Below are positions 21,374 to 34,988 of a stretch of DNA of 35,489 nucleotides, piece after piece. The position numbers and the translations under genes are program-made. The stretch's first letter is position 1; every line of letters begins with the position of its first letter. The notes below the pieces were generated by a model. It saw only the letters and a program-made list of their open reading frames with translations. It was not told the DNA's origin and did not search any database. Source of the stretch: an uncultured Myxococcales bacterium (lineage in GTDB: Bacteria > Myxococcota_A > Polyangia > Polyangiales > Polyangiaceae); contig CALFNG010000500.1 in assembly GCA_937902985.1 (NCBI GenBank), positions 1-35,489 of the forward strand, in the 5' to 3' direction.

Positions 21374-21913
21374 CTATTCCTTCTTCTCGCCGCCGGCTGG
21401 CGTGGTGGCCGGCCCCGCCGGCGGCTCGCCCTCGACGTCGTTGATTGTCGCAGTGGTGGCAGGCAGCCCGCCCGGGGCCGCGAGGCCCGTCTTCGGGTCG
21501 ATCGTTCCGCCGTAGTCGTTGTCGATCTGACCGCGCCGGCCGAGGTCGTCGTACGTGAACACGATGAAGATCGCGAGGAACAGGAACGCCGCCAGGAACG
21601 TCAGCGTGTTGAACAGCTTGTCGTGCCGGAGGTGCATGAAGAACGTCGCGACGAGCCCCGCCTTCGTCGTGGCGATGAGCAGCGCGACGATCACGTTGGC
21701 TGGGCCGAAGTCGTAGTACGAGACCTTCACGGTCATGATCGTGAGACATACGAGCGCGACGAAGATCCCGACGTAGAACTGAGTGCTCGCGATGTGAACG
21801 TGCACCGCGCCGTCGTCGTCACCGTGGTCGTGACCGGCGTCGTGACCGGTGTCGTGACCGGTGTGCGCATCCACGGCGCTCGCGGAGGGCGGCTGATGGG
21901 ATTCGGTGGCCAT
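21374..21913 (-). CDS. coxD: Cytochrome c oxidase subunit IV (prokaryotic, caa3 type)
   Basis: The protein has 179 residues. Three membrane helices are predicted (about 46-64, 72-92, 99-118) with the family segment TKAGLVATFFMHLRHDKLFN in the middle, typical of the small subunit IV of caa3 oxidases. The N-terminus before the first helix is a His/Asp-rich stretch with the repeat TGHD-TGHD-AGHD, coded by a 12-bp tandem repeat; it might bind metal or be disordered. The C-terminal 60 residues are soluble, Gly/Pro/Thr-rich and longer than usual. It follows coxC by 3 bp and precedes the lipoprotein gene by 8 bp. Confidence 0.88.
   Translation of the reverse strand: MATESHQPPSASAVDAHTGHDTGHDAGHDHGDDDGAVHVHIASTQFYVGIFVALVCLTIMTVKVSYYDFGPANVIVALLIATTKAGLVATFFMHLRHDKLFNTLTFLAAFLFLAIFIVFTYDDLGRRGQIDNDYGGTIDPKTGLAAPGGLPATTATINDVEGEPPAGPATTPAGGEKKE
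21827..21862 (-). repeat. 12-bp tandem repeat, three copies, inside coxD
   Basis: GTCGTGACCGGY is repeated three times at 21827-21838, 21839-21850 and 21851-21862, with one changed base in the first copy. Being 12 bp long it keeps frame and codes for TGHD-type units in the His-rich N-terminus of CoxD. Copy-number change would alter only the length of that tail. Confidence 0.8.
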
Positions 21914-21916
21914 GGG

Positions 21917-22732
21917 TCAGTCCGGCTTTCCGACGAGATAGAGGAGTGGGAAGAGATAGATCCACACGAGGTCGACGAGGTGCCAGTAGAGGGCGCCGAG
22001 ATCGACCGGGGTGAAGTACTCCTTCGAGAAGCGGCCCCGGGTGTTCTTCACGAGAACCCAGGTGAGGATGCTCATTCCGATCACGACGTGAACCGCGTGC
22101 AGACCGGTCATCACGAAGTAAATCGCGAAGAACATGTTGGCCCGCGGCGGCAAGAGCTGCTCGTGCCCCGACTCGTCGATCGCGCGCACCCAGAGCGGGC
22201 TGCCGGGCATCTCGTCGGAGTGGATGCGCAGGCACGTGCCGACCTCGTGGCCGTTCTGGATCGCCGCGCTGAAGTACGGGTGGCCGAAGCAGTGCCCGGG
22301 CAAGAGGCCCAGGTGGAACTTGTGCGCGTACTCGAAGTACTTCACGACGAGGAAGACGACCGCGCAGAGGATGGTGATGACGAGATAGATCGACGTCTGA
22401 TCGCGCTTGCCGAGCTGCGACGAGCGAACCGCGAGGGCCGCAGTCAAGCTGCTGAACAGGAGGACGACGGTGTTCGTCGCGCCCATGATCTTGTTCAGGA
22501 AGTGGTGCGACTGGTCGAAGATGTCAGGCTCGAGGCCGCGCCATATCGCGTAGGCGCAGAAGAGACCGCCGAACATCAGGATCTCGGTGGCGATGAAGAT
22601 CCACATGCCCAGCTTCGACGCGTTGAACTGCTGCGCCGGCGTGTCGAAGTGATGCTGCAGGAACGAGGGGTGCGCGTGCGCGTGCTCCCCGTGACCCGCC
22701 TTCTCGGGCAAGCTTTCGCTTACGTTAGCCAT
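21917..22732 (-). CDS. coxC: Cytochrome c oxidase subunit III
   Basis: The protein has 271 residues. Five membrane helices are seen (about 41-61, 84-103, 112-131, 199-220, 243-262), as in subunits III that lack the first two helices of the seven-helix form. Family segments include LGMWIFIATEILMFGGLF, FEYAHKFH and GLHAVHVVIGM near the end, with the final WHLVDLVWIYLFPLLYL. Subunit III supports stability and proton uptake of the oxidase. The N-terminus is His-rich (GHGEHAHAH). The loop between helices 3 and 4 (about 140-198) is long and contains Cys148 and Cys167 plus several histidines, which I do not recall from standard subunits. The gap to coxA is 9 bp. Confidence 0.93.
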   Translation of the reverse strand: MANVSESLPEKAGHGEHAHAHPSFLQHHFDTPAQQFNASKLGMWIFIATEILMFGGLFCAYAIWRGLEPDIFDQSHHFLNKIMGATNTVVLLFSSLTAALAVRSSQLGKRDQTSIYLVITILCAVVFLVVKYFEYAHKFHLGLLPGHCFGHPYFSAAIQNGHEVGTCLRIHSDEMPGSPLWVRAIDESGHEQLLPPRANMFFAIYFVMTGLHAVHVVIGMSILTWVLVKNTRGRFSKEYFTPVDLGALYWHLVDLVWIYLFPLLYLVGKPD

Positions 22733-22741
22733 GAGCTTCTC

Positions 22742-24460
<1,719 letters not shown>

Positions 24461-24483: not shown

Positions 24484-25536
24484 TTACTTCAGCGACTCGA
24501 TGTACGCGATGACCTCGTTCAGCTCCTGATCGGAGATCTGACCGCGGAAGGTCGGCATCACGGGCCCGAAGCCCGTCACGATCTTCGCCTGCGGATCGAG
24601 GATCGACTCGCGAATGTAGTTCTCGTCGATCTTGACCTTACCGACGTTGGTGGCTTCTTCCTTGCCCCAGATGCCCTTCCACGAGGGGCCGACGCCCGGA
24701 ACCCCGGTCGTCGTGTGGCAGGCCAGGCAGCCCTTGTTCGAATAGATCTTCTGCCCCTGCTCGGCCGCGATGTCGGCGGGGCACGGCTTGCCGGTGGTGG
24801 CGAACTGATCGCACTTGTCGCCGATGCTCTTCAGGAACTTGGCGTAGTCCTCTTCGGTCTCCGAGAACATCATCCCGTGCATGGCCCAGTGGCCGGTCGC
24901 CTGACCTGCCGGGTACGGATTGCGCGGGTCGTCGGACGGCTCGTACGGGAGCTCGCCGTTCGCGCCGGTGCTACGGCCGCCGCAGTACTCGGCGCAGGCG
25001 ATGTCGTCGTGACCGACGTGGGTCGTCTGGAACCAGACCGTCGTGAACATGCCCGGCACCACGTCGCGCTTCACGCGCAAGGCCGGCACGAAGAAGGAGT
25101 GGAGCACGTCGGCCGAGGTGAGAACGAGCTTCACCGGCTTGCCCTCCGGGACGTGCAGCTCCGGGCTGCTGCCGCCGTTCGGATAGACGAATTCCCAGCT
25201 CCACTGCTTGGCGTTGACCCGGATCTCGATCGAGTTCGCCGGGGCGACCGCGAGGTCCATGTAGCCCTGGAAGCCCTTGTGGAAGAGGAACACGAGGATG
25301 AAGATCGGCGCGACGGTCCACGCGATCTCGAGGGGCATGTTGTGCCCGGTCGGCGTCGGCTTGTGGCCGGGTCGCTCGCGGTACTTGATCGCCCAGTAGA
25401 TCATCGCCCCGACGATCGCGACGAAGAGAACGACGCTCGTCCAGTAGATGAAATAGTAGAGCCAGTCGATGTCTCCAGAGACAGTCGACATCTGCTCCGG
25501 GAGCTGGTAGGTGGCGGGTGCGTTCGACTCGTTCAT
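24484..25536 (-). CDS. coxB: Cytochrome c oxidase subunit II with fused cytochrome c domain; CuA motif interrupted
   Basis: The protein has 350 residues. Two membrane helices (about 24-48 and 70-90) are followed by the cupredoxin CuA domain with QWSWEF near 111 and His146. The CuA loop normally reads CxExCGxxHxxM; here Cys181, Glu183 and Cys185 are followed by 29 residues instead of two before His216 and Met219, so about 27 residues are inserted. The C-terminal monohaem domain has CLACH (270-274) and Met327 as likely sixth ligand, which makes the enzyme caa3 type. Two extra cysteines (242 and 252) precede the haem motif. No cleavable signal is obvious; helix 1 may serve. The insertion keeps frame and all ligands, so it looks functional. 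It lies 6 bp after the SCO gene. Confidence 0.94.
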
Positions 25537-25542
25537 GGCGAC

Positions 25543-26544
25543 TCAGGAGGTGGGGGTGTTCCGCGGAGTGGGCCCGAGAACGGAGACCGTTGGAGCGCGA
25601 GTCTCGTCGGCCCCGGCCGCGAGCGAGGGCGGGGAGGAGGCGTCGCCGCTCGCGGTCGAGGGGGCGGGGGACGCGGCGGTGCGGCCCTTCTTGTGCCGCT
25701 CGCGCATCCACATGATCCCGAGGAAGGTCGCGAAGAAGGCGAGCGTGACCGCGCCTCCGAGGCGCATCACGTTCATGGCGACGATCGAGTAGTGCTTTCC
25801 CTGCGGGTCGTAGTGGTAGCAAAAGAGCATGATCCGCTCGGTCGTCGAGATCGACCGGCCCTCGGTGGCCTCGAGGAGCCCGAGACGAACGTCTTTCGGG
25901 TCGTACGAGATGCCGTAGAGGTAACGGGCCATGTGCCCGTCGGGCGTCAGCAGGTAGATCGCTGCGGGGTGCGCGTACTGCTTTTGCCGCGCGTCGTACC
26001 GGTACTCGAAGCCGACGGACTCGGTCACCTTGCGGATGTTGATCTCGTCGCCGACGAGGAAGTGCCAGCCGGTCGTGTCGCCTCGAGCTCGCGTGTACGA
26101 CTGGACGACCTGGCCTCGCTTGCGCGTCGCCGTCTCGGGGGTGTCGTTCGGGTCGATACTGATGGAGACGACGTCGAACTCGCGGCCGACCGTCCACTGC
26201 ACGTCGTTGAGCGACCGCACCGTCGCGTCGAGCACGAGGCTGCAGAGCATCGGACAGGTGTGGTACGCGAACACCAGCAGCGTCGGCCGCTTGTGGTCGA
26301 AGTAGTCGCCCAGGTGAACCGCCTTGCCCTCCGCGTCGCGAAAGGCGGCGTCGGCCGGGAGCGGCCCCTTCAGGTGCTCGACGATGTCGACGCCCGTCAG
26401 CTCCGGCGCCGGTGTGTTCGGCATCCCCTCGCTCGTGTCCCGCCACGCTTGAGCGCGCGCGTTGCCGGCGACGACGACGAGGCAGATAGCCAACGCCGTG
26501 GCGGCCAGCAGCCGGGGGACGTGTCGAGCGGGGATCAACGTCAC
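25543..26544 (-). CDS. SCO1/SenC-family copper chaperone for the CuA site
   Basis: The protein has 333 residues. A signal peptide ends near residue 31 (NARAQA). The thioredoxin-like domain holds the copper ligands CPMLC (Cys97 and Cys101) and His192 (YAHPAAIYLL). SCO proteins deliver copper to, or reduce, the CuA cysteines of oxidase subunit II, and coxB is the next gene. A C-terminal membrane helix (about 255-275, AVTLAFFATFLGIMW) anchors it, unlike the N-terminal anchor of many SCO proteins, and a Ser/Pro/Ala-rich tail follows. The start is a GTG at 26544 overlapping the upstream stop as GTGA. Confidence 0.92.
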   Translation of the reverse strand: MTLIPARHVPRLLAATALAICLVVVAGNARAQAWRDTSEGMPNTPAPELTGVDIVEHLKGPLPADAAFRDAEGKAVHLGDYFDHKRPTLLVFAYHTCPMLCSLVLDATVRSLNDVQWTVGREFDVVSISIDPNDTPETATRKRGQVVQSYTRARGDTTGWHFLVGDEINIRKVTESVGFEYRYDARQKQYAHPAAIYLLTPDGHMARYLYGISYDPKDVRLGLLEATEGRSISTTERIMLFCYHYDPQGKHYSIVAMNVMRLGGAVTLAFFATFLGIMWMRERHKKGRTAASPAPSTASGDASSPPSLAAGADETRAPTVSVLGPTPRNTPTS

Positions 26545-27077
26545 TTCGTTGCCGGCTTCTTGGGCGGGCTCGGGGTGATGGGGCCGTTCACGGGGCGAAC
26601 ACCAGGGCTAACACCAGGGCTAACACCAGGGAGCGTGCCGTGGAGAGCAGCGGGAGCGCCGGCGTCGACGCTCGTGGAGGCTGCCGGTGCCGCGGGTGCG
26701 CCCCCGTCATCTAGCGCCGCCGCCATCATCGGCGAAGGGACCTCGTTCGGCATCTTCATCCAGCCCTGCATCGGGCCGATGTCCTTCGAGGCCGAGGGCA
26801 TGATGTCCGGGCTCGCGCCCATGCGCCCGCGGGCGACGATGGCCTCCATGGCCTTGTCGACCGGCATCGGGCCGCTCTTCAGGCGCTGGTCTTCGTCGGC
26901 TCGCAGGTTCAATAGCGCCGCGGGGACGACCATCCCGATCTTCCGGTGCTGTTCGCCGCTGGTGATGCTGTCGAAGTACGGGATGAGTACGCCTCGTATC
27001 CCGACGAGGCAGACGACCGCGAAGAGTCCGATCTGAAAGATCAGGCCGGACCGGGGCTCCGATTTATCAAAGGCCAT
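26541..27077 (-). CDS. Membrane-anchored Ala/Pro-rich protein of the ACIII operon, unknown function
   Basis: The protein has 178 residues. One membrane helix (about 13-32, LIFQIGLFAVVCLVGIRGVL) near the N-terminus leaves the rest in the periplasm. Residues 35-115 are a small, probably folded part with many Met residues (GMVV, GPMP, GRMG, DIMP, PMQGWMKMP), and 115-178 are Ala/Pro/Gly-rich with a PGVS repeat. There is no haem motif or cysteine after the helix. Its position between actF and the SCO gene, with a GTGA overlap to SCO, suggests a part in ACIII or oxidase assembly, perhaps metal handling by the Met-rich part; this is inference only. I recognise no family name. Confidence 0.78.
   Translation of the reverse strand: MAFDKSEPRSGLIFQIGLFAVVCLVGIRGVLIPYFDSITSGEQHRKIGMVVPAALLNLRADEDQRLKSGPMPVDKAMEAIVARGRMGASPDIMPSASKDIGPMQGWMKMPNEVPSPMMAAALDDGGAPAAPAASTSVDAGAPAALHGTLPGVSPGVSPGVRPVNGPITPSPPKKPATK
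26598..26631 (-). repeat. 12-bp tandem repeat, 2.8 copies, inside the ACIII-operon membrane protein
   Basis: AACACCAGGGCT (plus strand) is repeated from 26598 to 26631 without a mismatch. On the coding strand it gives the Pro-Gly-Val-Ser units near the C-terminus. The 12-bp unit preserves frame. Exact identity between copies suggests a recent slippage event. Confidence 0.85.
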
Positions 27078-27130: not shown

Positions 27131-28474
27131 TCATGCGTTCTCGAAGTCGAGCGCGCGCCCCAAGCGCGGGTCGCCGATCGGAACGAGCGAGTAGTCCTCC
27201 ATGCCTCGGAGGACGGCAGCCAGGTACACGCCGAAGACGCCCAGGAGGCACCCGAGGTCGACGATGCTCGGCTCGAACGGCCCCAGGTTCGGCATGATGA
27301 TCCAGTAGACCTCGATGACGTGCATGAAGACCATGCACCCGGCCCCGATCGCGAGGAGAGGCAGCTTCCTCTTGATGTTGCGCGACATCAGGAACCAGAA
27401 CGGCACGAAGAAGTGCATCAGCACGAGCGCGATGCTGAAGTTCTTCCAGGTGCCTCCGTTGTCGTGCCAGCGCTTGTGGAACCAGGCGACTTCGTCGGGG
27501 ATGTTCGAGTACCAGGTCAAGAAGAACTGGGCGAATGAGATGTACGACCAGAACACGATCCAGCCGAAGAGGAACTTCCCGAGGTCGTGATAGTGCTCGA
27601 CGGTGACCGCGTTGCCGAGGAGACCGCTCCTTCGCAGGGCCAGCGTCAGCAGGATGAGCGAGGCGATCTGGAAGAGCGCGCACTGCGCGAAGATCTGGAC
27701 GCCGAAGATCGTCGAGTACCAGGTGCCGTCGATCGACAAGAGCCAGTCGAAGGCGAAGTACGTCAGGCTGAAGCCGAAGAGGAGTATACCGGCGGGCGCG
27801 AAGCGCTGACCTGCGGCGGTGTTCTCGAGGGCCTTGGTCTTGTCTTGATCCGTCGACCACCGGAAGTATTTCTGAGCGAGCCAGGTCCAGATCAAGAGGT
27901 ACGCGATGAGCCGGACCAGGAAGAACTGGCGGTTCAGGTAGCTCCGCTTGTGGTTGATGATGTTCTCTTCGGCCCGCTCCTCGGCGTGCTCCATGCGCTT
28001 CGTGCTGGCGACCGGCAGGTCACGGAGGGCCGCCGGCTCGCGGCTCTCGAGGCCGCGCGCCTCGGCGATCGGGCTCTCCGACGACGTGTCGTTCTCGGGG
28101 GGCGCGGCGTGCTTCGCGCCGAGCCACGGGAAGAGGTGACCGATCGTCAGGACGAGCGGAATGACGAGGACCGCGAAGATCGGCATCGGCCGCATCAAGA
28201 GCTCGGCGACGCGCCGGACGGTGACGCTCCACGACGACTTGGTGATGTACTGCACCAGGACGAAGAACAGGCACCCGAGCGGCAGACTGATCGCGACGAA
28301 GAACGCGAACAGGTACGAGAAGGCGAACCGATCAGGGTCCATCTTGTAGCCGTACGCGGCGATCCCCAGGCCCAGCGCACCGACCCCCGCGGGGTACTTC
28401 CATGCGCCGTTCCAGGACGACTTCGCCGTGATGCGGTAGTCGCGCGCCGCGGCAGGCTTGATCGAGGTGCTCAC
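27131..28474 (-). CDS. actF: ActF, integral membrane subunit of alternative complex III
   Basis: The protein has 447 residues and about ten membrane helices, typical of ActF, the NrfD-like second quinol-binding candidate of ACIII. The N-terminus KSSWNGAWKYP is followed by a helix pair, and later segments WLLSIDGTWYSTIFGVQIF and SYISFAQFFLTWYSNIPDE are highly typical of the family. Between the third helix and the next is a hydrophilic loop of about 65 residues rich in Glu, Ala and Arg. The GTG at 28474 overlaps the actE stop as GTGA with GAAGAAG just upstream; the open frame reaches 28762 only as a shadow in actE. It is followed by a 53-bp gap to the unnamed membrane protein. Confidence 0.92.
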   Translation of the reverse strand: MSTSIKPAAARDYRITAKSSWNGAWKYPAGVGALGLGIAAYGYKMDPDRFAFSYLFAFFVAISLPLGCLFFVLVQYITKSSWSVTVRRVAELLMRPMPIFAVLVIPLVLTIGHLFPWLGAKHAAPPENDTSSESPIAEARGLESREPAALRDLPVASTKRMEHAEERAEENIINHKRSYLNRQFFLVRLIAYLLIWTWLAQKYFRWSTDQDKTKALENTAAGQRFAPAGILLFGFSLTYFAFDWLLSIDGTWYSTIFGVQIFAQCALFQIASLILLTLALRRSGLLGNAVTVEHYHDLGKFLFGWIVFWSYISFAQFFLTWYSNIPDEVAWFHKRWHDNGGTWKNFSIALVLMHFFVPFWFLMSRNIKRKLPLLAIGAGCMVFMHVIEVYWIIMPNLGPFEPSIVDLGCLLGVFGVYLAAVLRGMEDYSLVPIGDPRLGRALDFENA

Positions 28475-29163
28475 TTCTTCGGCTCCGTGGGCTGGCTGGA
28501 GTCCGCCATCTGGCTCATCTCGAGCGCGCGGACGTAGCTGACGATGGCCCAGCGATCGGCCACCGGAATCTGAGGGCCGTAGGCGGGCATCGTGCGTACG
28601 CCGTGGGTGATGGTCGCGAAGAGCTGCCCGTCGGGCATGTGCCGGAGACGCGGATCCTCGTACGAGGGCAGCGGCGCGAAGCCGCGCGACTCGCACGGGT
28701 CGGTCACCTTCTGGCGCTTGCAGACGACCATGCCCTTGCCGTCGCCCGTTCGGCCGTGGCACGGGGTGCAGTAGATCGTGTACCGCTCCTGGCCTCGGGC
28801 GAGCAGCTTCTCGATGCCGCCGGCGCGATTGATCGCCGCGGGCGGGACCGTCATCGCGTACCCCGACTTGTCGGGCAGGAGGCCGGTCGCCACCTCGGGA
28901 TCGTCTTCGTAACGGTCGCGCGCGATCGTGCCCTCGACCGGGGCTCGCATCGTGCGGTGGTCGGCGAAGAACTGGGAATACGACTCGGGGTTGTAGCGCT
29001 CGGTATCGTACATGTTGCGCTCGAGGAGGATCGGCGGATCGTCGCTCGTCTGCCCCCGGCAGCCGGCGACCCCGCCCGCGCTCAGCGCCACGCCAAGCGC
29101 GATGAGCGCACCGACCGCGCTCGACGCGCGAACCGTAACTGCAGCCGCGTTCACGCCGCTCAT
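28471..29163 (-). CDS. actE: ActE, monohaem cytochrome c lipoprotein of alternative complex III
   Basis: The protein has 230 residues. A signal peptide ends in the lipobox GVAGC (Cys35), so the protein is lipid-anchored on the periplasmic face. One class I cytochrome c domain follows with CTPCH (132-136) and Met192 (VRTMPAYG) as likely sixth iron ligand. Cys148 and Cys157 are placed to form a disulfide in an insertion after the haem motif. Lys and Ser/Pro fill the end. ActE is thought to pass electrons from ACIII toward the oxidase, here probably to the haem domain fused to CoxB. Both ends overlap neighbours: actD by ATGA and actF by GTGA. Confidence 0.93.
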   Translation of the reverse strand: MSGVNAAAVTVRASSAVGALIALGVALSAGGVAGCRGQTSDDPPILLERNMYDTERYNPESYSQFFADHRTMRAPVEGTIARDRYEDDPEVATGLLPDKSGYAMTVPPAAINRAGGIEKLLARGQERYTIYCTPCHGRTGDGKGMVVCKRQKVTDPCESRGFAPLPSYEDPRLRHMPDGQLFATITHGVRTMPAYGPQIPVADRWAIVSYVRALEMSQMADSSQPTEPKK

Positions 29164-29738
29164 GCCGGCTCCTCTTCGATCACTTCGACGTGCGCCGCGT
29201 GGAAACCTTCGAGCAGCTCGCGGGTCCGGACGACGTCAAACTTCGGGTCCTCGGCCTCGATCGAGATGAAGAACTTGTCGTCGGTCGCCGAGCGGAAGCG
29301 GTCGGACGCGAACACCGGGTGGTGGTGGCGCGGCAGCTTGTTCAGGCCGAACATGCCGAGCACGGCGCCGAACGCCGACAGCAGGATGGTGAGCTCGAAG
29401 AGAATCGGCACCATCGACGGCAAGGTCTGCGGCGCTCCCGGCGGCTTGTCGCCGACGACGGTCACGTAGTCGACGCCGTTCATCCAGTGCATCATCACGA
29501 ACGCGCCCGTCAGGCCGGTGAGCGCGAACGCGAGCACGATCCAGCCGAGGCGCGAGTCCCTGAGGCCCATCACGCGGTCCATGCCGTGCACCGGGAACGG
29601 CGTGTGCGTGTCCCAGTGCCTGTAGCCCGCGGCCTGGACCTTCTCGGCCGCGTGGAGGACGTCGTGCGCGCTCCCGAACTCCGCCAGGATGACGGCGGGG
29701 ACCGCCGCGCCGGACTTGGCAACTTTCGCGTCCATCAC
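29160..29738 (-). CDS. actD: ActD, DUF3341 membrane subunit of alternative complex III
   Basis: The protein has 192 residues. It begins with a short soluble part ([19 protein letters not shown] then [17 protein letters not shown], the best marker of this family), followed by two membrane helices (about 66-86 and 110-133) and a soluble C-terminus with [10 protein letters not shown] and [10 protein letters not shown]. ActD has no known cofactor and stabilises the complex in published ACIII structures. The start may be ATG 29738 or the adjacent ATG 29735; the first overlaps the actC stop as ATGA. The stop overlaps the actE start. Confidence 0.93.
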
Positions 29739-31198
29739 TCCGCTCCTCCCGGAACGAGCCCGCCGGCGACCGCCGCGTCGGGCACGTGGTCCGGACCGTG
29801 TGGCTCCACGTGCTCTTCGCCCGCGTGGGCCAGGTGCGGATCAGCCTGCGGCATCGTGCCTTTGACCTCGGCCACCGCGACCATCGGCAGCCAGCGCATG
29901 AAGAGGAGGAAGAGCGTGAAGAACACGCCGATCGTTCCGGCGAAGATCCCGACGTCGATGATCGTCGGGCGATAGTAGCCCCACGAGCTCGGCAAGAAGT
30001 CTCGGTTCAGCGAGAGCACGATGATGACGAAGCGCTCGAACCACATGCCGATGTTGATGAGGATCGAGGCGACGAACATCACGGGGATGTTCGTGCGCAT
30101 GCTCTTGAACCAGTAGATCTGGGGCACGAGCGTGTTGCAGCTCATCATCCAGACCCACGCCCACCAGAACGGGCCCATCGGCCGGTTGTGGAGGAAGTGC
30201 GCCATCTCGTACTGGTTTCCCGAGTACCAGGCGACGAAGAACTCCATCGAATACGCGTAGCCAACGAGGAGCGACGTCAGGAGCAGGAACTTGTTCATCA
30301 GCTCGAGGTGTCGCATCAAGACCACGCGCTGGAGCTTGAAGACGCTGCGCGCGACGAGGAGCACCGTCTCGACCATCGCGAAGCCGCTGAAGACGGCGCC
30401 GGCGACGAAGTACGGCGGAAAGATCGTCGTATGCCAGCCGGGGATGACCGACGTGGCGAAGTCCATCGAAACGACGCTGTGCACGCTGAGCACCAGCGGC
30501 ATCGAGATGGCGGCGAGGATCAGGTACGCGCGCTCGTAGTTCTGCCAGTGGCGGTTGCTGCCGCGCCAGCCGAGCGCGAGGAAGCCGTAAACGCGCTGCC
30601 GCCACTTCGTCATCGACCGATCGCGCTGCGTCGCGAGGTCGGGGATGAGGCCCGTGTACCAGAAGAGGACCGACACGGTGAAGTACGTGCCGACCGCGAA
30701 CACGTCCCAGAGGAGCGGCGACTTGAAGTTCGGCCACAGCGTCATCTGGTTCGGGAACGGGAAGACGTAATAGAGCAGCCAGGGTCTGCCGACGTGAATG
30801 CCCGGGAAGATGAGCGCGCAGATGACGGCGAAGATCGTCATCGCCTCGGCGAAGCGGTTGATCGCCGTGCGCCACTTCTGCCGGAAGATGAAGAGAATGG
30901 CGCTGATGAGCGTGCCGGCGTGGCCGATGCCGACCCACCACACGAAGTTCGTGATGTCCCACGCCCAGTAGACCGGAGCCGTGTTTCCCCAGACGCCGAC
31001 GCCCCGATAGAAGAGGTAGGCGACGCAGACCGTGAAGAGGCCCGTGAGCGACGACGCGATGCCGAACAAGATCCACCACCCGCGCGGCGCGGCGGTCTCG
31101 GTGACCTTGACGATGTCGTCGGTCACCTCGGCGAGGGTGCTCCCCTCTTGAACGAGGTGAGCTTCGCCGAGCTCAGTAATGGGCTTCCAGTAAGCCAT
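29735..31198 (-). CDS. actC: ActC, NrfD-family quinol-interacting subunit of alternative complex III
   Basis: The protein has 487 residues with ten membrane helices, the fold of the NrfD/PsrC family. Typical segments are [18 protein letters not shown] near 90, the PWLLYY segment, [39 protein letters not shown], and WYSGNQYE before the last helices. Family knowledge places the quinol site near the periplasmic end of the helix bundle and the ActB iron-sulfur domain on top of it. The C-terminal 45 residues are His/Glu/Pro-rich and soluble. The start ATG 31198 shares one base with the actB stop (TGATG). Confidence 0.95.
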
Positions 31199-34100
31199 CA
31201 GACCATCTCCGGATTCGGGTTACGGACCTTGCCCAGGTACGTCGTCCGGGGACGCGTTCCGAGCTCCTGCAGCAGGCCGAACCGGCGGTCGGTTCGCGTC
31301 CACCGGGTCACGATGCTGTTCGGGTCGTTGATGTCGCCGAACACGATCGCGTCGGCGGGGCACGTCTGCTGGCAGGCGCTGCGGATCTCTTGATCCTTGA
31401 GCTCGCGGTACTCGCGCTTCGCGCGGATCTTCGCGGCCTGGATGCGCTGCACGCAGTAGGTGCACTTCTCCATGACGCCGCGGAAGCGCACGGTGACGTT
31501 CGGGTTCTGCTGCATCTGCAGCGATTCGGGCAGACCGCCCGTCTCTTTCCACACCGAGTCGTTGTGCCAGTTCAGGTAGTTGAAATGGCGCACCTTGTAC
31601 GGGCAGTTGTTCGCGCAGTAGCGCGTGCCGATGCAGCGGTTGTAGGCCATCTCGTTGAGGCCTTCGGGACCGTGCGTCGTGGCGTTGACCGGGCAGACGT
31701 TCTCGCACGGCGCTTCTTCGCAGTGCACGCACGCCAGCGGCTCGTTGATCGCCATGGGGTTGTCGGCGGTGGCGCCGAGCTTGGGGTCCTCGACCCAGTA
31801 GCGGTCGATGCGGAGCCAGTGCATCTCGCGGCCGCGCCACACTTCGAGCTTCCCGACGACGGGGACGTTGTTCTCGGACATGCAGGCGATGACGCACGCG
31901 CCGCACCCGGTGCAGGCGTTCAAGTCGACGGACATGCCCCACTGATGGCCCTGGCTGTAGTCTTGCTGGGTCCACATCGGGAGAGCGCGCTGGGGGGCGT
32001 TGTCGAGCTCCGCGAAGTTCGGCTTCAGCTTGTAGTCCGCGAGGGTCGCCTCGTGGGCGATGGGGCGGCCTTCGGTCGAGTCGTGCTCCTGCGTCTGCGC
32101 GAAGAAGTACGGCTCGCCGCCGGCCTTCGCGATCTGCGCGCCGACTGCGAAGCCGAGCGCCTGCGTCGTGCGGAGCGGGTACACGTCGAAGCCGCGGCCG
32201 TTGCCGATACGACCGGCCCTCTTTCGGCCCCACCCGAGCGTCAGCGCGATGCTGTTGTCGGCCTGGCCGGCGAGCACCCACGCGCCCACCGAGACCGACT
32301 GACCGTTGACGGTGAGCTTGATCAGGTCCTTGCTCTCGATGCCGAGAGCCTTGGCCGTGGCCGGCGAGACGATCGCCGCGTTGTCCCACACCAGCTTGGT
32401 GACGGGATCGGGCATCTCTTGCAGCCAGGTGTTGTTCGCGTGCGCCCCGTCGACCATCTTCGGACAGGGCGCGAACGTGACTTCGAGCGACTGCGGCCCG
32501 ACGCTCGCGGCGACGACGCGCTTGTCGATCGCGGCGGCCACGTCGACGCCGCGTAGGACCGGCGGGGGCGGCGGCTGCTGCGGGCGCGACGAGACGCCGA
32601 GGGCCAACGCGCGGTTCCACTCGCGCTCGAGGTCGGTCGCGTGGACGGGCACGGCGTTGCCGGCCGCGTCGTGGCATTCGACCTTGCCGTCGGTCAGGGG
32701 ACCACAGCCGTTGAGGCCGTGGGCGCCGAGGACCGCGGTCCGGACCGTGCCCCGAACGGCCTCGTGCGCCGACTTCTCGGGGGCGTTGGCCATGAAGGCG
32801 AGCAGTTCGATGTCCCCGCGCCCGTCGTAAAGGGGCGCGATGAGCGGCTGCCGGACGCTGGTGCTGCCGTCGAGCGCGCGCTCGTCGCCCCACGACTCGT
32901 AGGCGTGCGCGCGGGGGACGTGCCAGGTGCAGTTCTCGCTCGTCTCGTCGACGAAGAGCGAGGCGTGGACGCTGAACGGGACCTTGGCGAGCTTGTCGGC
33001 GAAGCCGACGTCGGCGGGCGCGTCGTAGACGGGGTTGCCGCCGAGGATGACGAGCGCCTCGACCTGGTTGGCCGCGATGGCGTTGGTCAGCGCCTTGATG
33101 TCGGTGACGGCGTCGAGCTCGTCGGGATCCGCGGCCGGAGCGCGCGAGAGCGAGGCGCCGACCGCGCCGAGCGCCGCGTTGAGCGCGTGCCCGAGGGCGT
33201 GGAGCGACGCCGGCTGGCGAGAGCCGACGACGACGACCGCTCGGCCTCGGTTGGCCGCGAGGTCCTTGGCGAGCGCCCCGAGCCACTGCGGCGGAATGCC
33301 GTCGCCCGTGGCCTTCGACACGCTGCGCTGAACGTCGTCACCCAGGGTGACGCCGTTCTTGGTGAGCTCGGTGGCGAGCGCGTGGGCGAAGCGCTCGACG
33401 TCGCTGGCCGCCAGGCGCAGGCGATGGTCGGCGTTCATGCCCGTCACCGTGCGCCCGGGCTCGACCACGTAGAGCCGGCTCATCGTGTCTTTCGAGGAAC
33501 GCAGGCGGCGCCCGGAGGCGAACATCTTCGTCGAGCGAACGCTGCCCGACTCGGTCTGCAAGAAGTCGCTGTCGAGCGACACGATGACCCGCGCCCGGTC
33601 GAACGAGTAGAGGGTGGTCAGCGGCTCGCCGAACGCGATGCGCGCGCCTTCGCGCGCGTTGCTGTCGCTGACGGCCGACCACGTGTGAACGCGCGCCTTC
33701 GGGAAGCGCTGCGCGAGCGCGGCGCGCATACGGATGACCGTGGGCGACAGGGTCGGCGGCATGAGGAGACGAAGGCGCGTGCCCTGGTCCGTGTCGAACT
33801 CGCCCAGCTTGGACGCGAGCGCCGCTTCGAAGTCGGCCCAGCTCGCGGGCGCGCCGCCCTTGCGGGGACCGGTTGACCGCTCCGGATCGTAGAGGTCGAG
33901 GATCGTGGCCTGGGTGACCGCGTCGGTCGCGCCGAGGCTCGATTGCTGCGACTCGTTGCCCTCGATCTTGGTGGGCCGGCCCTCGTGCGATTCGACGATG
34001 AGCCCGATCGCGTCGCCGCGGCGCTGGATGACCGTCGCGTAGTGCGACGGGACGCCCGGGATCACGTCTTCCGGCATCTTGGTGTACGGGACGATCTTCT

Positions 34101-34350
34101 CGAGCGGGCGGCGGCACCCCTCGGCGCCGACGAGCGCCATGGTCGCCGTCATCGCGCCCAGCAGGCCGCGCCGGCTGACGAGCAGCGCCTCTTCGGCCGG
34201 CGGCGTGGTGAAGTGCCCCTTGTTGGGGAACTCGGCGGCGTTCTGCTCGGCGACGGTCTCGTCGGAGCGGCCGCGGTCTTCGAGGTTACGCCAGTACTGC
34301 GGGGACCCGGGGTAGGGCTCGTGAACCGGATGCGGGGCTCGCTTGCTCAT
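31198..34350 (-). CDS. actB: ActB, large iron-sulfur subunit of alternative complex III
   Basis: The protein has 1050 residues from the ATG at 34350, which overlaps the actA stop as ATGA; the longer open frame upstream is a shadow of actA. A twin-arginine signal SRRGLLGAM begins at Ser59, well inside the protein, and is followed by a lipobox-like cysteine at 79, so export by Tat and lipid anchoring are likely. Residues about 85-790 form a molybdopterin-oxidoreductase-like domain that lacks its cofactor in known ACIII. The last 260 residues are a ferredoxin-like domain with [37 protein letters not shown] and CTYCVQR..CQQTCP for three 4Fe-4S and one 3Fe-4S cluster by family knowledge. It passes electrons from the ActC site to the ActA haems. 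Confidence 0.96.
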
Positions 34351-34988
34351 CGGTGGCACCCCGCGCAGTTCTCGGGCGGATTGAGCTTGCGCGGCGGCTC
34401 GACGTGCGCGTCGTGCGTGTACGCCATGTTCGTGATCTGGCTGACGGGACGAATGAACTCGCTGTCCCCCTGCTTCACTTTCACGTCGCGGTGGCACTCG
34501 AGGCACCACCCCATGCTGAGGGGCTTTTCCATCCGCACTTGTTCCATCTGGTCGATGCGGCCGTGACAGGCCGCGCAGCCGACGCCCGCGGTCACGTGGA
34601 CGCTGTGGTCGAAGTAGACGTAGTCAGGAAGCTTGTGGATCCGGTTCCACTCCATGGGCGTGCCCGTCTGCCAGCTGACGCGGATCGGCTCGAGGAGCTT
34701 CGAGTCGGTCTTCACGACCTGGTGGCAATTCATGCAAGTTTCCGTGGGCGGCACCATCGCCAGCGGGGCTCGCTCGACGTTCACGTGGCAGTACCGGCAG
34801 TCGAGACCGAGTTGGCCGACGTGCAGCCGGTGCGAGTAAGGCACCGGTTGCTTGGGCGAGTACCCAACCTGCGTGAAATACGGCGAAAAATAGTACCAGA
34901 TGAAGAACACCACGCCGACGAGTCCGGCGGTGGCGCCTGCGCCCACGACCAGCGGGAGCTTGTTGAGTGAGCGAGGGAAGATTTGCAT
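34347..34988 (-). CDS. actA: ActA, pentahaem cytochrome c of alternative complex III
   Basis: The protein has 213 residues. An N-terminal membrane helix (about 11-33) is uncleaved and is followed by a periplasmic domain with five CxxCH motifs at 64-68, 85-89, 138-142, 162-166 and 208-212; the last one is only one residue from the end. His residues at 53, 56, 128 and 131 are candidate sixth ligands. This matches the pentahaem ActA of Rhodothermus marinus, the first gene of the ACIII operon, which collects electrons from ActB. The start ATG 34988 has no strong ribosome-binding site, though the N-terminal helix fits it well. A sigma70-like promoter lies about 110 bp upstream. Confidence 0.96.
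   Translation of the reverse strand: MQIFPRSLNKLPLVVGAGATAGLVGVVFFIWYYFSPYFTQVGYSPKQPVPYSHRLHVGQLGLDCRYCHVNVERAPLAMVPPTETCMNCHQVVKTDSKLLEPIRVSWQTGTPMEWNRIHKLPDYVYFDHSVHVTAGVGCAACHGRIDQMEQVRMEKPLSMGWCLECHRDVKVKQGDSEFIRPVSQITNMAYTHDAHVEPPRKLNPPENCAGCHR

Follow-up and report, generated by a model that had tools for sequence, protein, structure and literature searches.

CoxB, the caa3-type cytochrome c oxidase subunit II encoded in a 35,489-nucleotide stretch of an uncultured Myxococcales genome (contig CALFNG010000500.1; hereafter ‘the window’), has a copper-binding CuA loop that is longer than the canonical loop by 27 residues. The CuA loop holds most of the ligands of the site and is usually treated as fixed in length. 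In CoxB, the extra residues fall between the second Cys and the second His ligand. The reading that we favor, and to which we give about an even chance of being correct, is that they form a flexible flap that varies between lineages and lies on the donor rim of a CuA site that is normal in other respects; there, the flap would shield the site or tune the access of electron donors.

CoxB, its CuA ligands, and its operon

The coxB gene (24484-25536, minus strand) is open from ATG to stop and encodes 350 amino acids, as expected from the original prediction that its frame is intact. Several features identify the product as a caa3-type subunit II of the A-family heme-copper oxidases: the COX2 transmembrane and periplasmic CuA domains (Pfam COX2_TM, 29.7 bits, cut-off 22.8; COX2, 44.8 bits, cut-off 22), six CuA ligand residues (two Cys, two His, one Met, and one Glu), a fused cytochrome c domain with a CxxCH motif and a distal Met, and the company of genes for subunits I, III, and IV (Table 1). 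The score of CoxB against the NCBIfam equivalog TIGR02866 (144.4 bits) falls below the curated cut-off of 147.7 bits, and that alignment stops at residue 186, just short of the insert. The host genome encodes a single CoxB of the inserted type.

Table 1. Positions of CoxB, its functional residues, and neighboring genes in the window.
Feature	Position	Strand	Evidence and remarks
CoxB, caa3-type cytochrome c oxidase subunit II: two TM helices, CuA cupredoxin domain, fused cytochrome c domain	24484..25536	-	Pfam COX2_TM, COX2, and Cytochrom_C above cut-off
First CuA histidine H146	25099..25101	-	Invariant in aligned relatives
CuA ligand segment C181-A-E183-Y-C185	24982..24996	-	C181, Y184, and C185 invariant (60 aligned relatives); E183 at least 90%
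27 extra residues, e.g., 188-214, between second Cys and second His ligand	24895..24975	-	Sequence and alignment; predicted flexible, pLDDT about 55-67
CuA ligand segment H216-W-A-M219	24880..24891	-	Both H216 and M219 invariant (60 aligned relatives)
Linker cysteine pair C242/C252, between CuA and cytochrome c domains	24781..24813	-	Conserved in genus
Heme c motif CLACH (residues 270-274), fused cytochrome c domain	24715..24729	-	Read from sequence and alignment of relatives
M327, likely sixth heme ligand of fused cytochrome c domain	24556-24558	-	Sequence and alignment
CoxA, subunit I	22742..24460	-	Pfam COX1; lineages with the expanded loop show no corresponding insertion
Cox3, subunit III	21917..22732	-	Pfam COX3
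Cox4, prokaryotic subunit IV	21374..21913	-	Pfam COX4_pro
SCO1/SenC-like CuA assembly protein	25543..26544	-	Pfam SCO1-SenC
ACIII genes ActB, ActC, ActD, ActE, and ActF-like membrane subunit, upstream in operon	27131..34509	-	Pfam ActD, NrfD, Fer4, cytochrome

All of the CuA ligands (H146, C181, E183, C185, H216, and M219) are present, as had been proposed. The canonical loop pattern CxxxCxxxHxxM, with three residues from the second Cys to the second His, is not found in CoxB, where 30 residues (186-215) separate C185 from H216. The original prediction of about 27 extra residues splitting the loop is thereby borne out, with its count of 29 residues between these two ligands being one too few. 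The insert contains five Pro, three Gly, and two Asp residues and neither Cys nor His, matching the composition first described for it (rich in Pro, Asp, and Gly). Alternative ligands directly after C185, which had been named at the outset as a possible objection, were looked for and rejected, as the residues between C185 and H216 include no His or Met. Residues H220 and M223 also spell HxxM; this register was rejected because only H216 and M219 are invariant in relatives. An assembly or frame error was likewise rejected, since the insert is conserved and is common to three genomes of the genus, with the two further genomes (overall identity 77-78% and 71%) having a spacing of 31 residues. The invariant ligands, together with the modeled core fold, suggest that a binuclear CuA site is most likely retained in CoxB.

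In an AlphaFold model of the CoxB monomer, computed without subunit I or ACIII, the core has a pLDDT above 90 and the blocks of the insert have values of 55-67 and no secondary structure. The model matched the fold of a solved oxidase subunit II (7au6_B; Z 18.9, 206 aligned residues, 2.3 Å) and that of the Rhodothermus marinus caa3 cytochrome c domain (1w2l; Z 16.6, 95 aligned residues, 1.4 Å). The insert is located where the bovine enzyme has Asn203, which directly precedes the second His ligand. In the crystal structure of the cytochrome c-oxidase complex, Asn203 lies in the cytochrome c contact region, and no other oxidase side chain in that region differs on cytochrome c binding (PMC5286356). 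From this position the insert should emerge on the donor rim and, by analogy with the bovine enzyme, we infer that it lies on the donor-side rim of the CuA site. This position also supports the initial view that the CuA loop faces the electron donor.

A second loop, the hairpin just before the first CuA cysteine (immediately ahead of CxExC), is also expanded in a number of CoxBs (L148, L149, L150, L153, L157, L172-L174, L201, L156, L162, and L165), in which the His-Cys spacing increases from 34 to 36-105 residues. The expanded hairpin often has a cysteine-rich CxxDxDCP...CG...C segment and was confined to CoxBs with the Cys-His insert; a phylogenetically corrected association between the two expansions was not supported, with too few independent pairs available. 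In the model of the Sandaracinus homolog (L148), the Cys-His insert is weakly predicted (63-78) and the upstream cysteine-rich hairpin is confidently predicted (93-96). Both loops are also expanded in additional CoxB paralogs (L070, L074, and L080, as well as L095 and L107), and the examined flanks of L070, L074, and L080 yielded neither coxA nor ACIII genes.

Among loci of the window’s order with enough flanking sequence, inserted and canonical CoxBs share a common operon comprising ActB, ActC, ActD, ActE, ActF-like, SCO, CoxB, CoxA, Cox3, and Cox4, in which the ActF-like gene is assigned by position and conserved order. ActD was present in 129 of 144 genomes of the order. We looked in CoxA for an insertion that separates the inserted from the canonical group and found none. 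A 178-amino acid protein with no Pfam match is encoded between the ActF-like and SCO genes (window 26541-27077), a position that is kept in most relatives, and a second, diverged ActD homolog is encoded elsewhere in the same genome (G000:C98:14786-15223).

Distribution and history of the expanded loop

For 133 distinct CoxB proteins collected from the genus, the order, the phylum, and named genomes, we determined how many residues separate the second Cys from the second His. This spacing was 3 residues in 73 proteins, 10-31 residues in 60, and 4-9 residues in none. With no spacing between 3 and 10, these lengths are not loose variation of a variable loop. We scanned 377 genomes of the phylum with two nucleotide patterns, one for loops of about 7-17 residues and one for loops of about 18-27 residues; these matched 17 and 13 genomes, respectively, with every match in the window’s order. 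Together with the window’s genome and one congener, whose loops are too long for the patterns, this makes about 32 insert-bearing genomes among the 71 sampled from the order, a total that is a count of listed rows and that misses any CoxB whose residues differ at the codons in the patterns. The same two patterns detected an inserted loop in 0 of about 306 other phylum genomes outside of the order.

The insertion is restricted to one order and to rare, apparently independent cases elsewhere. Named relatives that bear it include Sandaracinus, Polyangiaceae, and metagenome-assembled genomes (MAGs) labeled as Nannocystis and Kofleriaceae; the labels of these and the following MAGs may be wrong. 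Other phyla were sampled only through a contig scan of named genomes that was seeded with inserted sequences and used two patterns of its own, one of which favors such sequences, and insertions were identified elsewhere in the tree in a Chlorobiales MAG (L196) and in one deltaproteobacterial MAG (L192). The apparently independent insert of the Chlorobiales MAG (L196, 5998-7008) comprises 24 residues and likewise occurs in an ACIII-caa3 operon. The objection that such a loop length might be common in ordinary caa3 oxidases, raised along with the original prediction, falls for those oxidases, where it is not common, and stands for the window’s order, where it is.

A phylogenetic reconstruction of CoxB that was built without the loop columns has at least 10 changes of loop state, 6 of which are forced by well-supported branches; a smaller tree of 106 rows has 8 such changes, 5 of them forced. 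The insert has thus been gained and lost repeatedly, with gain and loss indistinguishable case by case. The canonical loop is probably ancestral, because lineages outside of the order are canonical almost throughout. Sister CoxBs with and without the insert are 58-64% identical outside of the loop (L111/L077, L075/L078, and L028/L098).

The insert evolves under purifying selection within the genus. Among the three genomes, its dN/dS is about 0.14 and 0.22 in the pairs that include the window and 0.66, which is not low, in the third pair, all from small samples with only about 22 synonymous sites. For comparison, in the genus the CuA core has values of 0.26-0.43 and the linker values of 0.57-1.0, such that the values of the insert are near those of the core and mostly below those of the linker. 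Between genera, the length, sequence, and net charge of the insert (-4 to +2, mostly 0 to -2) are not conserved. Across all lineages, cysteine is absent from the 907 insert residues and methionine is almost absent.

A putative donor-side flap and its alternatives

We propose that CoxB is an otherwise ordinary caa3-type subunit II whose CuA loop has been expanded by an extruded, predictedly flexible segment that separates the second Cys from the second His. The six ligands stay in register around this segment and most likely form a normal binuclear CuA site. The segment, which should emerge from the rim of the donor surface where bovine Asn203 lies, would act as a lineage-specific flap that may shield CuA or limit which electron donor can approach. 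Engineered ligand loops on a Thermus CuA scaffold exhibit a reorganization energy that rises with loop length and solvent exposure (PMC7480511), and this trend makes a cost or tuning effect of the longer CuA loop plausible by analogy. Shielding or tuning, as inferred here, is the most likely role of the insert, with neutrality its main rival and docking of ACIII unlikely. Three observations count against a flap: canonical sister CoxBs have no visible change in operon content, the dN/dS of the insert is not low in one of the three genus pairs (0.66), and the lack of conservation between genera is what is expected of a tolerated, non-functional segment.

This last point suits an effectively neutral expansion, in which extra residues are harmless at this site and their lengths drift, an explanation that we consider possible at appreciably less than an even chance. 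The recurrence of gain and loss on the tree, the predicted disorder of the insert, the variability of its sequence and charge between genera, and the unchanged operon with or without it would all be consistent with neutrality. Three results are at odds with it, namely that conservation of the insert equals that of the CuA core and exceeds that of the linker in both pairs that include the window, that none of the 907 insert residues is a cysteine, and that spacings of 4-9 are absent.

An unlikely alternative is that the insert guides intramolecular electron transfer to CuA by making contact with the cytochrome c domain fused to the same protein or by holding that domain in position. According to the part of PMC5286356 that cites Lyons 2012, the heme c domain of caa3 faces CuA, and a fused domain occurs in almost all CoxBs of our set; however, it is equally present in those that lack the insert. 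Two or more linker cysteines were identified in 29 of 60 inserted CoxBs versus 11 of 73 canonical CoxBs, but this association was lost on phylogenetic pairing, where too few independent pairs were available.

The original prediction named a docking surface for ACIII as one possible role of the insert, and this role now appears quite improbable. CoxB is encoded directly downstream of the ACIII genes, and an ACIII-caa3 supercomplex exists in Rhodothermus (PMC5928083). Yet canonical CoxBs, some of them 58-64% identical to inserted relatives, occupy the same operon, and the insert varies between genera in length, sequence, and charge. Since the operon is identical with and without the insert, the presence of ACIII does not explain it. 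Moreover, contacts in the Flavobacterium johnsoniae supercomplex run via subunit III (PMC8361435). Finally, it is very improbable that the insert is the sign of an altered or missing CuA site, or that it serves as a dedicated platform for SCO-type copper loading: the insertion is inside of the ligand loop and an SCO gene adjoins coxB, but all ligands are conserved and SCO is present with and without the insert.

Relation to known oxidases and significance

The caa3 subunits II of Thermus thermophilus (PDB 2yev) and R. marinus (1w2l) are similar to CoxB in having two transmembrane helices, the same CuA ligands, and a fused C-terminal cytochrome c domain, and differ from it in lacking the 27 extra residues between the second Cys and the second His. 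Canonical CoxBs of other Myxococcota, Acidobacteriota, Planctomycetota, and Bdellovibrionota have the same domains and, within the order, the same ACIII operon, whereas their loop reads CxExCGxxHxxM with exactly 3 residues from Cys to His. We know of no Cys-His loop expansion in actinobacterial CtaC, the subunit II of bcc-aa3. CtaC belongs to a stable supercomplex with its electron donor (PMC8795186). CoxB and ACIII are linked here by the adjacency of their genes. The length of a copper ligand loop was also varied in the engineered chimeras on the Thermus CuA scaffold (PMC7480511); those are mononuclear type 1 sites with far shorter loops, in contrast to the natural loop described here, for which a binuclear CuA is predicted. 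The enzyme itself is a known one, and its expanded loop is a variant. No description of natural CuA-loop insertions of this kind was found in the open-access papers that were searched, which is not proof of novelty.

A more far-reaching reading, which we put forward tentatively and consider rather unlikely, is that the CuA loop is an evolvable module, one that selection in Polyangiales-type myxobacteria has repeatedly extended, between two of the CuA ligands, with flexible segments of 7-28 residues that are free of cysteine, thereby setting donor choice or reorganization energy. If true, this would overturn the view of the CuA loop as fixed in length. The inserted and canonical CoxBs also comprise a natural series of loops with 0, 7-8, 11-12, 15-17, 23, and 27-28 extra residues, all with the copper ligands in place. 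As this series includes sister pairs that share an operon layout and differ in the presence of the insert, it makes the relationship between loop length and reorganization energy testable on native enzymes, and it likewise allows the role of the donor rim in donor choice to be tested.
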